DNA of 64,000 bases from an uncultured Psychroserpens sp. GTDB lineage: Bacteria; Bacteroidota; Bacteroidia; Flavobacteriales; Flavobacteriaceae. Below the pieces are notes generated by a model. That model ran no database searches. It saw only the letters and a program-made list of their open reading frames with translations, and was not told the DNA's origin. Position numbers and translations under genes: made by a program. The DNA is taken from NCBI GenBank assembly GCA_947488655.1, contig CANKZZ010000006.1, positions 1 through 64,000 of the forward strand, written 5' to 3'. Below are positions 2,333 to 26,678 of the stretch, one piece after another (position 1 is the stretch's first letter; every line of letters starts with the position of its first letter).

Positions 2333-4303
2333 ATGAAAAGACATAAAATTATATTTATTCTGGCGTTAAGTTTAGTTTTCTCATCAGGTTTTGCGCAAAA
2401 AGGTAAAGTGCGACAAGCAAATGAAGCTTATGACAATTTAGCGTATTTAAAAACCAGTGAGATTCTATTAGAAGTTGCTGAAAAAGGTTATACATCTGTT
2501 GATTTACTTCAAAAGTTAGCTAACTCTTTCTATTTTAATAACCAGATGGAACAGGCTGCTAAATGGTATGGTGAGTTAATGGCTAAAAATGAAATTTTAG
2601 ATCCAGAGTACTATTTTAGATATGCACAAGCTTTAAAATCTGTTGAAAATTATGAAGAGTCAGACAAATGGATGAAAAAGTTTGCCGATGCTGATCGTAG
2701 TGATTTGAGAGGTAGAGCATTTAGTTCAACTGTAGATTATTTAGCAATGATTGACGAAGCTAGTAGAGAACTTGAAGTTAAAAATTTAGACATTAATACT
2801 GATGTTTCAGATTTTGGTACAAATCAATACCAAAATCAATTAATTTTTGCGTCTTCTCGTGGAGGCGGAAAAAAGTATAAATGGAACGAGCAACCTTACT
2901 TAGATCTATTTTCCGCAGAAAAACAAGATAATGGTAGCTACGGGAATGTTGAGAAATTAGACAGTGAAATTAATTCAAAATACCATGAGTCTACAGTAGC
3001 TTTTACTCCAGATGATATGGTAATGTATTTTACAAGAAATAACTATTTCAACAAAAAATATAAAAAGAGTGAAGATGGAACCAATCGTCTAAAATTATTT
3101 AGAGCTACACTAAATGATGATGGTGAGTGGGATGACATAGAGCCTGTGCATTTTAATAGCGATGAGTATAGTGTTGCCCATCCTACTATTAACGTACAAG
3201 GAACAAAATTATATTTTGCGTCAGATATGGAAGGTACTTTAGGCATGTCAGACATTTTTGTTGTAGACATCAATGAAGATGGTACACTTGGTGAGCCAGA
3301 GAATCTTGGTCCAAATCTTAATACAGAAGGACAAGAGACGTTTCCGTTTATTAATTCAGATGGAGATTTATATTTATCATCAAATGGGTTTAACGGTTTA
3401 GGTGGATTAGATGTTTTTGTTATAAGAGACTTTGAAAACAAGAAAGAATTAAGCCAACCAATGGCATTAGAAAATGTTGGACGACCAATAAATAGTCCTA
3501 TGGATGATTTTGGTTACTATGAAAATTTAGGAACTAAAGAAGGTTTCTTCACATCAAACAGAGATGGAGGTAAAGGTGATGATGATATATACACGTTTAC
3601 AGTACCAGAATGTGCACAAGTAGTAGAAGGAACAGTTAAAGATAAAAATACACTAGAATTATTACCTGGTGCAGTAGTAACTTTATTTGATGCAGAAGGT
3701 AATAAATTACAAGAAGTTACTGCAGGAGACGATGCAACTTATAAATTTGAAGATTTAGCATGTGAAACAGAATTTTTAATACGTGGTGAAAAAGCAACTT
3801 ATGCATCAGATGAAAAACGTTTTTCAACACCTAGAAAAAAACAAAAATTAGAGATAGAATTATTGTTGGAGCAAGATGAAGTGGAGTTAGAACCATGTGC
3901 AGATTTAGCTAAGATTTTAGATATTCCTATTATTTATTTCGATTTTGATAAATTTAATATTAGAAGAGATGCAGAGGTAGAGTTACAAAAAGTGTTAGCA
4001 GTACTTAACAAATACCCAACGATGACAATTGATATTCGTAGTCATACAGATTGTAGAGGTACAGCAAGTTATAATGAGCGTCTATCAAACAATAGAGCAC
4101 AATCTACACGTAAATACTTAATAAAGAATGGTGTTGAAGCAGATCGCCTAACAGCTAAAGGTTATGGAGAGTCACGTTTAGTTAACGATTGTGGTTGTGA
4201 ACCAACTAACGATTCTAACTGTAGCGAAGCAGAACACCAATTAAATAGACGTAGTGAATTTATCATCACAGGTATTAATGGTGTAAAATGTCCTGAGAAT
4301 TAA
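2333..4303 (+). CDS. OmpA family protein with TPR-like, PD40 and carboxypeptidase-regulatory-like domains
   Basis: 656 residues. Signal peptide ends at about residue 21 (SSGFAQKG). Residues ~25-150 are helical and TPR-like, ~150-420 contain WD40-like PD40 beta-propeller repeats (FASSRGGG, YFASDMEG, LYLSSNGF, FTSNRDGG), ~430-500 resemble a CarboxypepD_reg domain (VVEGTVKDKNT), and ~535-650 form an OmpA C-terminal domain (IYFDFDKFNIR, RSHTDCRGTASYNERLSNNRA) that binds peptidoglycan. The arrangement is typical of the OmpA proteins that follow PorP/SprF genes in Flavobacteriaceae, where they are thought to link the secretion or surface complex to the cell wall. A strong hairpin terminator follows and closes the three-gene unit. 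Confidence 0.93.
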   Translation: MKRHKIIFILALSLVFSSGFAQKGKVRQANEAYDNLAYLKTSEILLEVAEKGYTSVDLLQKLANSFYFNNQMEQAAKWYGELMAKNEILDPEYYFRYAQALKSVENYEESDKWMKKFADADRSDLRGRAFSSTVDYLAMIDEASRELEVKNLDINTDVSDFGTNQYQNQLIFASSRGGGKKYKWNEQPYLDLFSAEKQDNGSYGNVEKLDSEINSKYHESTVAFTPDDMVMYFTRNNYFNKKYKKSEDGTNRLKLFRATLNDDGEWDDIEPVHFNSDEYSVAHPTINVQGTKLYFASDMEGTLGMSDIFVVDINEDGTLGEPENLGPNLNTEGQETFPFINSDGDLYLSSNGFNGLGGLDVFVIRDFENKKELSQPMALENVGRPINSPMDDFGYYENLGTKEGFFTSNRDGGKGDDDIYTFTVPECAQVVEGTVKDKNTLELLPGAVVTLFDAEGNKLQEVTAGDDATYKFEDLACETEFLIRGEKATYASDEKRFSTPRKKQKLEIELLLEQDEVELEPCADLAKILDIPIIYFDFDKFNIRRDAEVELQKVLAVLNKYPTMTIDIRSHTDCRGTASYNERLSNNRAQSTRKYLIKNGVEADRLTAKGYGESRLVNDCGCEPTNDSNCSEAEHQLNRRSEFIITGINGVKCPEN

Positions 4304-4335
4304 TCAAGACCTTTAAATCCTATTAAATAAAAGTT

Positions 4336-4365
4336 AAAAGCTGTCTTTTTCAAGACAGCTTTTTC
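4336..4365 (+). terminator. intrinsic terminator after the OmpA gene
   Basis: A 12-bp stem AAAAGCTGTCTT / AAGACAGCTTTT with a four-base loop, followed by further T residues, lies 32 bases after the OmpA stop codon. Confidence 0.85.
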
Positions 4366-4409
4366 ATTTGTGATGGTTTTATGAAATTTAGTTGTTATTT
4401 TTGTTAGCT

Positions 4410-4934
4410 ATGATAGAAGAACATGTAATTCTTGTTAATGATAAAGATGAGCAAATAGGTACAATGCCTAAATTAGAAGCTCATGAAAAAGCGTTATTAC
4501 ATCGTGCATTTTCGGTATTTATATTTAATGACCAAAATGAATTGATGTTACAGCAACGCGCTAAGCACAAATACCATTCTCCGTTGTTATGGACCAATAC
4601 ATGCTGTAGCCACCAAAGAGTAGGTGAAAGTAATTTAGAAGCAGGAAAACGTCGTTTAATGGAAGAAATGGGCTTTGTTGTAGATTTAAAAGAAACCATT
4701 TCTTTTATTTATAAAGCTCCCTTTGATAATGGCCTAACAGAGCATGAGTATGATCATGTCATGATTGGTCATTTTAACAAAGAACCTATTATTAATCCAG
4801 ACGAAGTAGAAGCTTGGAAATGGATGCCTTTAGAGAGCGTTAAAGTGGATATAGAATTGCATCCAGATATCTATACAGAGTGGTTTAAAATCATTTTTGA
4901 TAAGTTTTATGAACACATAAATATCACCAAATAA
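4410..4934 (+). CDS. idi: isopentenyl-diphosphate delta-isomerase, type I
   Basis: Nudix-fold isomerase that interconverts isopentenyl and dimethylallyl diphosphate for isoprenoid, quinone and carotenoid synthesis. With the ATG at 4410 the protein has 174 residues, a normal length. The catalytic cysteine lies in WTNTCCSHQR (C66) and the Nudix-like helix in RRLMEEMGF; the acidic metal/catalytic site is in LTEHEYDHV. A longer reading beginning at a TTG (4392) was rejected because family N-termini match MIEEHVILV. A TAnnTTTG-like element (4396-4403) ends seven bases before the ATG, so the mRNA could be nearly leaderless, but a correctly spaced -33 box is not evident. The next gene starts directly after the stop codon, suggesting co-transcription. 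Confidence 0.93.
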   Translation: MIEEHVILVNDKDEQIGTMPKLEAHEKALLHRAFSVFIFNDQNELMLQQRAKHKYHSPLLWTNTCCSHQRVGESNLEAGKRRLMEEMGFVVDLKETISFIYKAPFDNGLTEHEYDHVMIGHFNKEPIINPDEVEAWKWMPLESVKVDIELHPDIYTEWFKIIFDKFYEHINITK

Positions 4935-7612: not shown

Positions 7613-9361
7613 CTAGCCAGCTGCAGCTAATTGCATTAAAATTGTGCATCCTATTGCAGCAATTGTACCTACAGCATAACCTAGGACAGCGAGCAATACA
7701 CCAACAGTAGCGAGAGATGGATGAAAAGCTGATGCCACAATAGGAGCAGAGGCTGCGCCACCAACGTTTGCTTGACTGCCAACTGCTAAAAAGAAGTAAG
7801 GTGCTCTAATTAATTTTGCAACTCCAATGAGTAATAAAGCGTGTATAGTCATCCATACAACACCAATAGCAATAAGACCAAGATTGTCAAAGATTAAGGT
7901 TAAATCCATTTTCATACCAATGGTAGCAACTAGGATATAAATAAACACACTTCCAAATTTACTAGCTCCAGCACCTTCATAATTTTTTGCTTTTGTAAAT
8001 GATAATAGTATGGCTATAATTGTAGCTATACTAATCATCCAGAAAAAAGAAGATCCTAAAAATGAAAATATATTTCTTGTGGTGCCAGACTGAATATTTG
8101 CAACTTTAATTTCAAAATATGGCGCTAAGAAGCCAGCACATAAATGAGCAATACTTACGGTGCCAAATGCTATAGCTCCAATAATCATAATATCTGTAAG
8201 GGAAGGGTTTCTTTTTACTTTTTCGGCAAATGTTGATACCTTTTCCTTTAAGTCATCTATAGAAGATGTATCTGCTTTTAGCCATTTATTTATACGATCT
8301 CGTTTTCCTATTCCTAATAATACGATGGCCATCCAAACATTTGCGACAACGATATCTACAAACACCATACCTCCATATAGACGTTGATTATACCCATAGA
8401 TTTCTAACATTGCTGTTTGGTTGGCTCCACCACCAATCCAACTTCCTGCTAATGTTGATAAACCTCTCCATACTGCATCAGGTCCAAAGCCTCCTACAGT
8501 CTCTGGAGAAATCGTAGCTATTAGTAAAATAGCAATGGGACCTCCAATAACGATTCCTACAGTGCCAGTGAAAAACATTACTAATGCTTTCCAGCCCAAA
8601 TTAAAAACCGCTTTTAGATCTATACTTAATGTCATTAAGACTAAAGCTGCTGGTAATAAGTAGCGACTTGCCATATAATATAAACTTGTACCATGCTCTA
8701 TGATTTCTCTGTCTTGTGAAATACTTTCCCAATCTGGAGCAATTAATCCAGTTGTTGTGAGAACAGCTGGTAACATATAGGCTATAAATAAACCTGGTAC
8801 GATTTTATAAAATTTTGACCAAAAACCAGATTTTATAGATTCTGTCAAAAAGACTAACCCTAAGGCTAGCATTAATAGACCAAACACTATTGTGTCTTTT
8901 GTAATAAGAGGAGCCCTAACATAAGCAGTTGATTTTTCATTAATAATATCAACATTAATTTGTTGTCCATTGTTGTAAAATGAAGCTTCTTGGACGTCTA
9001 AAATAGTGTCATCAACAAAACTTTCATCTGGCTTTATAAGTATTTTTAATAAATCACTGTTTTCTAATATATAATCTCCATTAGATTTAAATTCTATTAA
9101 GGTTGCATAATCAGAGAGTTTATTAACTTTAAATCCTGCACCTTCTTTAAAATATACTTCTTTAATCTTGGCAATAGAATCTCTAGTTGCAATTTTAATT
9201 TTAAAAGATGTAAAAGTGGCATTTTTTAATTCTAAAGGGACCTCAAATGCTTTAGTACTGTTTTCATCTACGCTTTTAACGGTGAGCGTTTGCGCATCAA
9301 TTGTATAAGAAAAAGCGAATAGAAATATAAATAGAATACTAAGGTTTAAAATCGTTTTCAT
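7613..9361 (-). CDS. DUF819 family membrane protein with an N-terminal secreted domain
   Basis: 582 residues. A signal peptide (to IDAQ, ~residue 23) and a ~130-residue beta-rich, non-membrane segment precede a DUF819 (YjcL-like) body of roughly ten membrane segments starting near residue 150 (PLITKDTIVFGLLMLALGL). Family features visible in the body: GSWIGGGANQ, the Gly-rich repeat AVGSQANVGGAASAPIVA, and paired hydrophobic helices resembling sodium/solute symporters. DUF819 proteins are usually about 380-400 residues and start directly with the membrane part, so the extra N-terminal domain is unusual. Transport activity is an inference; no substrate is known. No co-transcribed neighbour is apparent. 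Confidence 0.85.
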   Translation of the reverse strand: MKTILNLSILFIFLFAFSYTIDAQTLTVKSVDENSTKAFEVPLELKNATFTSFKIKIATRDSIAKIKEVYFKEGAGFKVNKLSDYATLIEFKSNGDYILENSDLLKILIKPDESFVDDTILDVQEASFYNNGQQINVDIINEKSTAYVRAPLITKDTIVFGLLMLALGLVFLTESIKSGFWSKFYKIVPGLFIAYMLPAVLTTTGLIAPDWESISQDREIIEHGTSLYYMASRYLLPAALVLMTLSIDLKAVFNLGWKALVMFFTGTVGIVIGGPIAILLIATISPETVGGFGPDAVWRGLSTLAGSWIGGGANQTAMLEIYGYNQRLYGGMVFVDIVVANVWMAIVLLGIGKRDRINKWLKADTSSIDDLKEKVSTFAEKVKRNPSLTDIMIIGAIAFGTVSIAHLCAGFLAPYFEIKVANIQSGTTRNIFSFLGSSFFWMISIATIIAILLSFTKAKNYEGAGASKFGSVFIYILVATIGMKMDLTLIFDNLGLIAIGVVWMTIHALLLIGVAKLIRAPYFFLAVGSQANVGGAASAPIVASAFHPSLATVGVLLAVLGYAVGTIAAIGCTILMQLAAAG

Positions 9362-10417: not shown

Positions 10418-11278
10418 TTAATGATTTAAAGTACCAGTATTTAATACTGGAGAGGCATCTTTATCTCCACAAAGAATAACCATTAAATTACTTACCATTG
10501 CAGCTTTACGTTCGCCATCAAGCTCTATAATTTGTTTTTTCTCAAGTTGCTCAATAGCCATTTCAACCATACTTACAGCACCTTCAACAATTTTATGTCT
10601 TGCTGCAACGATAGCAGTAGCTTGTTGGCGTTTAAGCATAGCGTTTGCAATCTCATTAGAATAAGCTAAATAGCCAATTCGTGCTTCTAGAACTTCTATA
10701 CCAGCAATAGTTAAACGCTCGTCTATTTCTTTTTCTAAGGCATTACTAACCTCGTTCACACTAGATCTTAATGTAATATCCTCATCAACACCTTCATCGG
10801 CAAAATTATCATAAGGATACATACTTGCCAATTTACGTACTGCTGCATCGGTTTGTACGCGTACAAAGTTCTCATATACATCTACATCAAAAGCTGCTTT
10901 GTAGGTGTTTTGAACTCGCCATACCAATATGGTACTTATCATAATAGGATTACCCATTTTGTCATTAACTTTTAAACGCTCACTGTCAAAATTTCTAGCA
11001 CGTAATGAGATTTTCTTTTTTGTATAAAAAGGATTAACCCAATAGAATCCATTTTTTTTAACTGTACCTATATATTTACCAAAAAGCAATAATACACGAG
11101 AGCCATTTGGTTGTACCATAATAAAACCAGGAGCAATAGCAATAGCAATTGGTACTAATAAAATAATCTCTGGGTATTTTGTAGTAATTGCAGCAGCTAT
11201 GCTTCCGAAGAATAAAATAAGGAAAACAAAGAGCATTAGATATCCATTTGCTGGGACGATGATTTTTTCTTCTTTCAT
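10418..11278 (-). CDS. SPFH (stomatin/prohibitin) domain membrane protein
   Basis: 286 residues. Two N-terminal hydrophobic segments (~13-33 and ~38-55) anchor it, followed by an SPFH domain (~55-200: QPNGSRVLLLFGKYIGTVKK, NPIMISTILVWRVQN, VDVYENFVRVQTDAAVRKLA). A helical region typical of flotillin/stomatin oligomers ends the protein (EIANAMLKRQQATAIVAARH). The family scaffolds membrane microdomains and often controls a membrane protease. No NfeD or FtsH-type partner is encoded nearby; instead a Gly-rich small membrane protein, a DUF1648 protein and an Arc regulator follow on the same strand. Confidence 0.9.
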   Translation of the reverse strand: MKEEKIIVPANGYLMLFVFLILFFGSIAAAITTKYPEIILLVPIAIAIAPGFIMVQPNGSRVLLLFGKYIGTVKKNGFYWVNPFYTKKKISLRARNFDSERLKVNDKMGNPIMISTILVWRVQNTYKAAFDVDVYENFVRVQTDAAVRKLASMYPYDNFADEGVDEDITLRSSVNEVSNALEKEIDERLTIAGIEVLEARIGYLAYSNEIANAMLKRQQATAIVAARHKIVEGAVSMVEMAIEQLEKKQIIELDGERKAAMVSNLMVILCGDKDASPVLNTGTLNH

Positions 11279-11364
11279 AAGGTTGATGTTTTAGTTAAAT
11301 AATTTAATATGATATTATTTTGATATCAAATATACATCAAACATTTTTAGCTACCAAATCAAGT

Positions 11365-11381
11365 TTGGCACGCCATTTGCT
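11365..11381 (+). promoter_or_regulatory. sigma-54 (RpoN) type promoter
   Basis: TTGGCACGCCATTTGCT matches the -24/-12 consensus YTGGCACG-N4-TTGCW at every fixed position, with GG (11367-11368) and GC (11379-11380) exactly ten bases apart. It points to the plus strand, where no protein gene follows. Confidence 0.75.
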
Positions 11382-11391
11382 TTATACATAT

Positions 11392-11507
11392 TGTAAATGA
11401 TTATGATGATCTTAGAAGAGGAGTGATTACCTCGCATAAAGGAGTAATATTTACATTGGTTGGTTAGTTAATAAAAACGCATCTCTTTTTTGAGATGCGT
11501 TTTTTAT
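11392..11507 (+). ncRNA. candidate sigma-54-dependent small RNA
   Basis: From the predicted start (12 bases after the -12 GC) to an intrinsic terminator is about 115 nt with no convincing protein gene. The segment can fold: TGTAAAT (11392-11398) pairs with ATTTACA further on, enclosing a GAGG/CCTC hairpin, and the 3' end is a strong terminator. A 9-codon frame MIMMILEEE (11397-11426) exists and could be a translated mini-ORF instead. Expression and function are inferred only from the promoter-terminator pair. Confidence 0.5.
11473..11506 (+). terminator. intrinsic terminator ending the orphan RNA
   Basis: Stem AAAAACGCATCTC / GAGATGCGTTTTT around a six-T loop with a T-tract after it. It can also work on the minus strand for the hydrolase gene that ends at 11528. 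Confidence 0.85.
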
Positions 11508-11527
11508 TTTAATATATGGCGACTTAT

Positions 11528-12454
11528 TTATTTTAATATAAAGCTAGAAATTGTAGTAATGAGTTCTTCGGAAATTTTACGAGATGACTCATTATAGCTT
11601 TTTGAATTTACCAATTGATCACCTTCAATAATAAAGAGCACATGGTTCATTTTATCGATGATTTTAATTTCAGATGTTTCCGAAGCCTCTTTAAGTAATT
11701 GCGCTTCATCAACCGATACCTGAAGATCTTTAGTGCCATTTATAATAAGAATAGGAATGTCTAAAGCTTTTATAATCTCTTGTGGATTGTATTGCATCCA
11801 ATTCATTATAAAGGGTTGTATGTCTGCTCTAAAAACTGGTGCCAGTGGTTGAGGATAATCTGTAGTTGTTTTACCTTCTCTTAAACTTGTAAAGGCCTTT
11901 TTAGTCGCCTCAATGAGAGAAGGATCCATGTTGCCAATTTGCTCTGTAATAACCTTATCTATAGATTGTCCAGCACCAGCGAGCGATATAAAGCCATCGG
12001 CTCCATTTTTTGCAGCAAGCATACCAACCAAACTACCTTGACTATGACCTATTATATAAATTTTAGAATAGAGATTTTGTGTTTTAAAATACTCAATTAC
12101 AGATGTAGCGTCCGTAACAAAATCATCAAATTTTATATTAGGGTCTACATTGTTTTTAAGTATTTGTTTAACAATACGCTTATCATATCTAAAGGTGGCT
12201 ATACCATTATTAGTTAATGATTCGGCTAATTTTTTTAATGAATTGTTTTTCATGAAATTCTGGTTTCCATTTCTATCGGTTGGTCCAGAACCAGCAATAA
12301 TTATAGCAAGATTTGGTGTCTTTATGTCTTTGGGTGTTAAGAGCGTACCGTCAATTAAATTGTTAATGGCAACATCTTGCGTATTAAAAGTTTGCTCTTG
12401 ACTTTGAATATTAAGACTTAAACAAATTAAAAAAAGACTTAAGTAATATTTCAT
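11528..12454 (-). CDS. secreted alpha/beta hydrolase (S33-like)
   Basis: 308 residues with a signal peptide (to ~residue 18, NIQSQEQ). Alpha/beta-hydrolase features: oxyanion segment IIAGSGPTDRNGN, nucleophile elbow GHSQGS (Ser in IIGHSQGSLVGM), Asp after ILIINGTKDLQV and the catalytic His in KMNHVLF. Substrate unknown; related Bacteroidota proteins are annotated as serine aminopeptidase S33 domain or dienelactone-type esterases. It stands alone on the minus strand between two orphan hairpins. Confidence 0.85.
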   Translation of the reverse strand: MKYYLSLFLICLSLNIQSQEQTFNTQDVAINNLIDGTLLTPKDIKTPNLAIIIAGSGPTDRNGNQNFMKNNSLKKLAESLTNNGIATFRYDKRIVKQILKNNVDPNIKFDDFVTDATSVIEYFKTQNLYSKIYIIGHSQGSLVGMLAAKNGADGFISLAGAGQSIDKVITEQIGNMDPSLIEATKKAFTSLREGKTTTDYPQPLAPVFRADIQPFIMNWMQYNPQEIIKALDIPILIINGTKDLQVSVDEAQLLKEASETSEIKIIDKMNHVLFIIEGDQLVNSKSYNESSRKISEELITTISSFILK

Positions 12455-26506: not shown

Positions 26507-26538
26507 AAAAAGGCTTGTCGTGATTGACAAGCCTTTTT
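26507..26538 (-). terminator. attenuator (leader terminator) of the trp operon
   Basis: On the minus strand, stem AAAAAGGCTTGTC / GACAAGCCTTTTT with a six-base loop and a T-tract lies between the leader peptide and trpE, ending 17 bases before the trpE ATG. UCGUGA in the last codons of the leader peptide can pair with UCACGA of the loop and 3' arm, a possible antiterminator. Confidence 0.85.
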
Positions 26539-26569
26539 TAATATTTTGTTTTTAAATATAACTATAGGA

Positions 26570-26632
26570 TTAGTTCACGAGTTTTGAGTTTCGAGAATTC
26601 CACCACCAAGTAATATTTAAATTTGTGTTCAT
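26570..26632 (-). CDS. trpL: trp operon leader peptide
   Basis: A 20-codon frame reads MNTNLNITWWWNSRNSKLVN and stops at 26570. Three consecutive TGG codons (codons 9-11) are the classic signature of ribosome-stalling control by charged tRNA-Trp. It starts about ten bases after the predicted transcription start and stops 32 bases before the attenuator stem. Too short for standard gene callers. Confidence 0.9.
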   Translation of the reverse strand: MNTNLNITWWWNSRNSKLVN

Positions 26633-26647
26633 AATTATTGTAAAGTT

Positions 26648-26678
26648 CAAATATAGAAATCATAATTTAGTTATCAAA
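26648..26678 (-). promoter_or_regulatory. trp operon promoter
   Basis: Read on the minus strand: TTTG (26678-26675), exactly 19 bases, then TATATTTG (26655-26648). Perfect match to the Bacteroidota primary promoter. Predicted start near 26642. Confidence 0.85.

Follow-up and report, generated by a model that had tools for sequence, protein, structure and literature searches.

A predicted small RNA unit headed by a sigma-54 promoter lies in the genome of an uncultured Psychroserpens sp. and, judged by sequence comparison, is one member of an RNA family that extends across Flavobacteriaceae. It was found in positions 1 to 64,000 of the forward strand of contig CANKZZ010000006.1 (assembly GCA_947488655.1), and this whole stretch of 64,000 nucleotides is called the window below. 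The comparative evidence supports the promoter, the family and the fold well, while transcription, pairing and targets are what we infer. We lean towards reading the unit as a sigma-54-dependent trans-acting sRNA of about 117 nt that would pair through a conserved tail with the leaders of a few mRNAs; as such, it is probably a regulator of gene expression that occurs widely yet has hardly been described.

A sigma-54 promoter heads the predicted small RNA unit

The unit occupies the plus strand of a 311-base gap that separates a Band-7/SPFH gene from an alpha/beta hydrolase gene, both on the minus strand. The features of this region are as follows.

10418 to 11278, minus strand: left neighbour, gene for a Band-7/SPFH protein (Pfam PF01145)
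11327 to 11358, minus strand: sigma-A-type promoter that serves the Band-7 gene and points away from the small RNA (by eye)
11365 to 11381, plus strand: sigma-54 (-24/-12) promoter TTGGCACGCCATTTGCT (pattern match and alignment of copies)
11391 to 11508, plus strand: predicted small RNA of about 117 nt, its start (about 11392) placed from the promoter
11392 to 11455, plus strand: predicted 5′ domain, a closing stem (11392 to 11404 with 11444 to 11455) around the hairpin GAGG-CCUC at 11418 to 11433 (fold; covariation in relatives)
11456 to 11472, plus strand: predicted exposed tail UUGGUUGGUUAGUUAAU, the proposed seed (alignments; nine invariant columns here)
11473 to 11508, plus strand: terminator hairpin that probably serves both directions (sequence and fold)
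11528 to 12454, minus strand: right, convergent neighbour, alpha/beta hydrolase gene (Pfam PF12146)

The pattern TTGGCACG-N4-TTGCT has its sole exact match in the 3.6-Mb genome at 11365-11381, where ten bases separate the GG (11367-68) from the GC (11379-80) of TTGGCACGCCATTTGCT, bearing out the full RpoN consensus match with exact GG-N10-GC spacing claimed in the first-pass annotation. No second match was found in the window even when up to two mismatches were allowed (0.81 expected in shuffles), and with one mismatch the pattern occurred at six further places in the genome, against none for a reversed-pattern control. The gene for sigma-54 itself, rpoN (PF04552), is present in the same genome and in 394 of 397 genomes of the family; because it is nearly universal, we discarded its co-occurrence with the RNA as uninformative.

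Back to back with the sigma-54 site, inspection by eye placed the elements of the Band-7 promoter on the minus strand, namely, TATATTTG at 11327-11334 and TTTG at 11355-11358, the latter of which we take to be the -33 element of a sigma-A-type promoter. The -7 consensus given in PMC9723704 is TAnnTTTG. A TGATAT...TGATATCA repeat or palindrome at 11312-11330 of the window overlaps this promoter, and GATAT-N7-ATATC or a similar arrangement was present in 21 of 91 upstream regions versus about none in shuffles, making an operator of the Band-7 gene a possible role. As regards a conserved activator site of the sigma-54 unit, this palindrome was all that the upstream regions showed, and it may belong to the Band-7 promoter. 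Elsewhere in the window, a Bacteroid-trp leader RNA (RF01692, 54.3 bits) lies on the minus strand at 26526-26655.

The predicted fold is conserved and covaries

Along the unit, the sigma-54 promoter is followed by the closing stem with its apical hairpin, the tail UUGGUUGGUUAG and the terminator. The segment 11391-11508 was predicted to fold at -29.5 kcal/mol (z-score -3.70; as low in none of 200 shuffles), and the minimum-energy fold pairs TGTAAAT with ATTTACA, the self-closure proposed in the first-pass annotation. Near 11508 the unit closes, as was also claimed, with a strong hairpin and a T run. The description of this terminator as the RNA's own probably holds only in part: since it lies about 20 bases beyond the stop codon of the hydrolase gene (minus strand, gene end 11528) and has a T run both ways (by eye), it is probably common to the small RNA and this convergent gene.

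The gap was matched in 30 of the 57 genomes searched, our own included, and among these in all 22 same-genus relatives (Psychroserpens). All 22 carry the promoter and the RNA in that same gap, one copy (L029) being cut at a contig end. When the window copy was aligned with those of the 22 relatives and of genomes G027 and G031, the -24 GG and the -12 TTG stood at exact spacing in 25 of 25 copies, with TTGC in 21. Copies within the genus keep the closing stem, the GAGG-CCUC hairpin, the tail and the terminator, with small changes in the tail of three of them (L019, L029 and L031). The copies of G027 and G031 and one of Winogradskyella differ in a rebuilt middle part and retain the promoter, closing stem, tail and terminator. 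Conservation of promoter, closing stem and terminator with other parts free to vary had been predicted from the window alone, and this is the pattern found in relatives.

For covariation, we derived a 27-pair structure from the summed pair probabilities of 24 copies and read it against a free MAFFT alignment of the same copies. This alignment holds 57 doubly changed cells compared to 20.8 ± 4.5 in shuffles, of which none in 500 reached 57, and slid versions of the structure gave at most 22. A second subgroup of 27 copies yielded 25 doubly changed cells versus 16.1 ± 2.8 (1 of 500 shuffles), a weaker signal because its hairpin hardly varies; on two of its five measures, 55 and 161 of 500 shuffles did as well. 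RNAalifold applied to a 74-copy alignment and to the genus alignment recovered the terminator and not the closing stem, which was recovered from the subgroup alignments when the structure was taken from summed pair probabilities. A model built from the 24 copies of the first subgroup, none of them a Psychroserpens copy, finds the window copy (45.9 bits, E 2.4e-6; locus L008). In a 93-copy alignment, which was made with this model and is hence fitted to it, double changes occur at 25 of 27 pairs, with 495 cells versus 166.5 ± 11.1. The model termed R2 matched 77 of the 98 loci given to it, its misses including G027, G031 and Winogradskyella copies. On this comparative evidence, the RNA fold covaries and is well supported.

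The unit belongs to a family of predicted RNAs across Flavobacteriaceae

A pattern combining promoter and tail was found in 98 of 397 Flavobacteriaceae genomes, representing 67 of 237 genera, with no match for the reversed control; one of the matches (L187) was rejected by eye as a coincidence inside a coding gene. A second search used the model R3, which covers only the RNA from its start to the tail and leaves the promoter out. It also matched 98 of the 397 genomes, 25 of them missed by the pattern (hand comparison), so that pattern or model matched 123 genomes and neither did in 274 (by hand). Twenty of the pattern-missed R3 places were fetched; 19 of these genomes are represented, and G192 contributes an extra place. 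A sigma-54-like site (at least 9 of 12 positions matched, 20 to 26 bases upstream of the model start) precedes 18 of these 20 places, compared to 176 of 10000 random 50-base windows from the same loci. One of the 18 (L383) lacks the first G of the GG, and the two places without such a site are those of G131 and the extra one in G192. Besides these 20 places, G351 also carries the promoter; the inspection thereby covered all but the short or weak R3 matches in G060, G073, G132, G244 and G299.

From the fetched loci, we drew 128 distinct units, comprising 112 of class 1, 15 of class 2 and L187, the class-1 set excluding the latter two groups. The terminator test applied to them was permissive, as 127 of the 128 units passed, including L187; the one that failed, L215 of class 2, was left out of folding. 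In 104 of the 128 units (82 of 106 outside the genus group, within which the G027 copy was counted), at least one neighbour is homologous to genes around the window copy, and most copies can therefore be placed at one syntenic locus. A Band-7 homologue is the left neighbour in 45 of the 128 units and a hydrolase homologue the right neighbour in 60. The word "orphan" in the first-pass annotation consequently had to be dropped, the unit being one copy of a large RNA family found mostly at a syntenic locus. Tandem arrays of two to four pattern-matched copies occur at ten loci, and the model adds further copies in L196, L197, L198 and L200.

The class-2 units share the tail, have other folds and mostly carry CCGTC-type terminators. 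All fifteen come from 14 loci, 13 of which adjoin one kind of secreted-protein gene.

Class-2 loci: L176, L182, L201, L210, L211, L215, L216, L220, L221, L224, L225, L226, L229, L234

Folding separated the two classes. A closing stem of at least five pairs between the 5′ end and the segment before the tail was predicted in 83 of 112 class-1 copies, the z-score of the 5′ domain was below -2 in 54 of 112, and the unpaired probability of the tail had a median of 0.73, exceeding 0.7 in 59 of 112. Among the class-2 units, the closing stem was predicted in 8 of 14; since their median tail value was 0.45 and only 1 of 14 exceeded 0.7, the class-2 tail is not clearly exposed in these models. Predicted tail accessibility is thus only moderate in class 1 and poor in class 2.

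At the level of the order, a slightly wider pattern matched 12 of 395 genomes, all belonging to the 76 of our own family (hand count), and none of the 319 genomes of other families; the reversed control gave one match, in G046. In genus g146, this pattern matched 1 of 36 genomes (G644; hand count). At L397:1500-1776 of G644, a divergent sigma-54 unit with two tail-like repeats adjoins a Flavo-1 RNA (RF01705), and this unit could be a Flavobacterium counterpart.

The tail recurs at the ends of sigma-54-promoted genes

In the genome of the window, three genes that begin with a sigma-54 promoter have TTGGTTGGTTA and then a terminator at their ends.

L333:1924-2740 and 3530-4770 (own genome, C5): a pair of neighbouring genes whose products look secreted, each with sigma-54 promoter and tail
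L502:3476-4500 (own genome, C1): gene for a lipoprotein-like protein, with sigma-54 promoter and tail

None of the three had a Pfam or NCBIfam match. Orthologues of the 383-residue gene showed both the tail and a promoter matched at 10 or 11 of 12 positions in 10 of 10 judgeable Psychroserpens loci, namely, those long enough, and the exact 12-mer follows this gene in 22 genomes. A tail with one mismatch also follows a gene that is presumably clpB, with a weaker promoter-like site upstream. In F. psychrophilum, clpB belongs to the sigma-54 regulon, which PMC9723704 describes as covering protein quality control, envelope stress, gliding and exported proteins. Among the seven promoter-like places that match best in the genome, three lead to the tail, and no tail was found within about 1.5 kb of the strong promoter-like site at L002, L003, L004 and L007. 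Since this tail also closes several sigma-54 mRNAs of the genome, the small RNA is probably a non-coding arm of the sigma-54 regulon.

Complements of the tail point to candidate targets

The exact complement of the tail, CTAACCAACCAA, occurs 82 times in the 23 genomes of the genus (reversed control, 50). By context, 21 of these places are small RNA tails, 22 are tails of the secreted-protein mRNA, 5 lie in the frame of an ECF sigma factor and 34 are elsewhere, the last comprising 17 leaders, 13 coding regions and 4 other mRNA 3′ ends; L468, L493 and L498 were reassigned by eye to orthologous leaders, against the script label. The 17 leader places form nine groups, and 9 of 26, where leaders make up 5.5% of the positions on each strand of the window, gives a binomial probability of 6e-6, which is only rough because the groups were made by eye. 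Counted in our own genome alone, the complement shows no excess: with up to one mismatch it occurs at 47 places, and the reversed control likewise at 47.

Several of these leaders recur between species. That of an SSF symporter gene shows the complement in a hairpin loop in 4 species, and that of an AraC-type regulator carries it exactly in 4 species and with one change in our own genome, where a wobble pair is still possible. Two further leaders, of genes that we take to encode a response regulator and a MutS-like protein, carry the complement in 2 species each. A fifth candidate lies between genes.

L501:8503-10499 (own genome, C4): PspC-DUF4440-DUF2807 cluster, with an intercistronic hairpin in the gap 8998-9087

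The loop of the PspC-DUF4440 hairpin shows AACUAACCAACCA, a complement of the tail, and a duplex of 15 pairs at -22.2 kcal/mol was predicted between the two. In the 20 genus genomes read (16 in the alignment and four more), the ten-base core is exact in 14, although in G017 only in the second copy, and has one or two changes in 2; the site is lost in the other 4, in which hairpin and small RNA are kept. The G013 match misses the site, and G003 and G021 had no match. Two other candidates were rejected: the site in the ECF sigma factor mRNA lies inside the reading frame (TTG start, by eye) and varies at the third codon position, and the site in the leader of a presumed M14 peptidase gene is not conserved. 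The PspC-DUF4440 hairpin and the AraC-type regulator leader would be the best candidate targets in our own genome.

Proposed mechanism and alternative explanations

We propose that RNA polymerase with sigma-54 and an enhancer-binding activator would transcribe approximately 11392-11508 under some stress, with start, activator and signal all part of the proposal. Covariation and folding support a structure in which a long closed stem, topped by a single apical hairpin, is separated from the terminator by single-stranded UUGGUUGGUUAG. Sigma-54 would fire the small RNA together with the mRNAs of its regulon. The tail could then pair with CUAACCAACC where a small number of mRNAs expose it, in a leader or an intercistronic loop, and alter the translation or stability of these mRNAs. 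A broader version, which we put forward tentatively and regard as doubtful, is that a common UUGGUUGGUUAG tail often precedes the terminator of sigma-54 transcripts in marine flavobacteria, whether these code for protein or not. The sRNAs and fragments released from mRNA 3′ ends would then make up one seed pool with joint targets (the leaders of the PspC operon, AraC-type regulator, response regulator and SSF symporter), and the regulon would speak through a common 3′ word.

The main rival keeps the sigma-54-dependent RNA and changes its function: tail and GGUU apical loop would bind a protein and sequester it, or the tail would stabilise the 3′ end of some sigma-54 transcripts, with the leader matches being secondary. 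Such a role would suit the position of the tail directly before the terminators of both the small RNA and the mRNAs, the occurrence of UGGUU in both the apical loop and the tail, the tandem copies and the lack of excess complements in our own genome. It accounts less well for complements located in exposed parts of repeated, orthologous leaders, and we judge it rather unlikely, if a serious competitor to pairing in trans.

Two further explanations fare far worse. The first-pass annotation had noted a mini-ORF, MIMMILEEE, as an alternative product, and the unit might accordingly be an mRNA for this nine-residue peptide or a dual-function RNA. The frame does exist: from its start codon (ATG, or GTG in three copies) it runs open to TGA in 21 of the 23 copies within the genus. 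In L018 and L025, however, it is interrupted, and the rebuilt copies of other genera lack it while keeping the RNA fold; the constancy of the TGA is explained by its position within the conserved hairpin. A peptide product is therefore very improbable. Slighter still is the chance that the promoter is a fortuitous motif, conserved because the gap holds the Band-7 promoter and the hydrolase terminator. Although a sigma-A-type promoter and a two-way terminator are indeed there, the promoter turns up together with fold and tail next to different neighbours as well as in tandem arrays, and it reappears at the 18 of 20 places that had been picked without it (176 of 10000 in random windows).

Flavobacteriaceae are a major family of marine and soil bacteria in which regulatory RNAs have hardly been described. 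The widespread candidate sRNA offers a defined sigma factor, a fold, a mutable tail and named candidate targets, which makes the role of sigma-54 in these bacteria directly testable. A 3′ tail common to an sRNA and the mRNAs of one regulon would be unusual.

Comparison with known systems

A search of the 4227 Rfam families gave no match in the gap, the best match of a further search staying below the gathering score, and across 18 loci Rfam matched only the neighbouring Flavo-1 RNA (in L397). Rfam includes a model for the Qrr sRNAs, which are Hfq-dependent, and no Qrr match came from the Rfam searches of the window RNA. We found no account of this RNA in the open-licence literature, where the papers containing the tail string bore titles on other organisms.

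Among flavobacterial RNAs, Flavo-1 (RF01705) is in Rfam and adjoins the divergent unit of G644, without a match to the window RNA. Another flavobacterial small RNA, Rfp36 (THC0290_N_0510; start site 840245) of Flavobacterium psychrophilum, is listed with a sigma-54 (SM4) promoter (PMC9723704, Table 2). It could be compared by description only, as the main text of that paper gives no sequence, fold or function for it, and it may be related to the window RNA. Rfp18 of the same species resembles the unit as a conserved, structured flavobacterial sRNA, and its deletion lowers two protease mRNAs; it differs in being absent from the selection of sigma-54 promoters in Table 2 and in a predicted pairing via its third stem-loop (PMC9723704).

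Outside the phylum, Qrr1-5 of Vibrio are likewise sigma-54-driven, multi-copy, trans-acting sRNAs, but they serve a quorum-sensing circuit with LuxO as activator (PMC8043402), and their sequences were compared with ours via Rfam only. The sRNAs of the sigma-E arm (MicA, RybB and MicL, and FoxI and FoxJ of Fusobacterium) similarly form a non-coding arm, there of an envelope response under an alternative sigma factor (PMC11005410). That arm depends on another sigma factor in other phyla, whereas in our case the tail of the predicted sRNA is found on mRNAs of the regulon as well.
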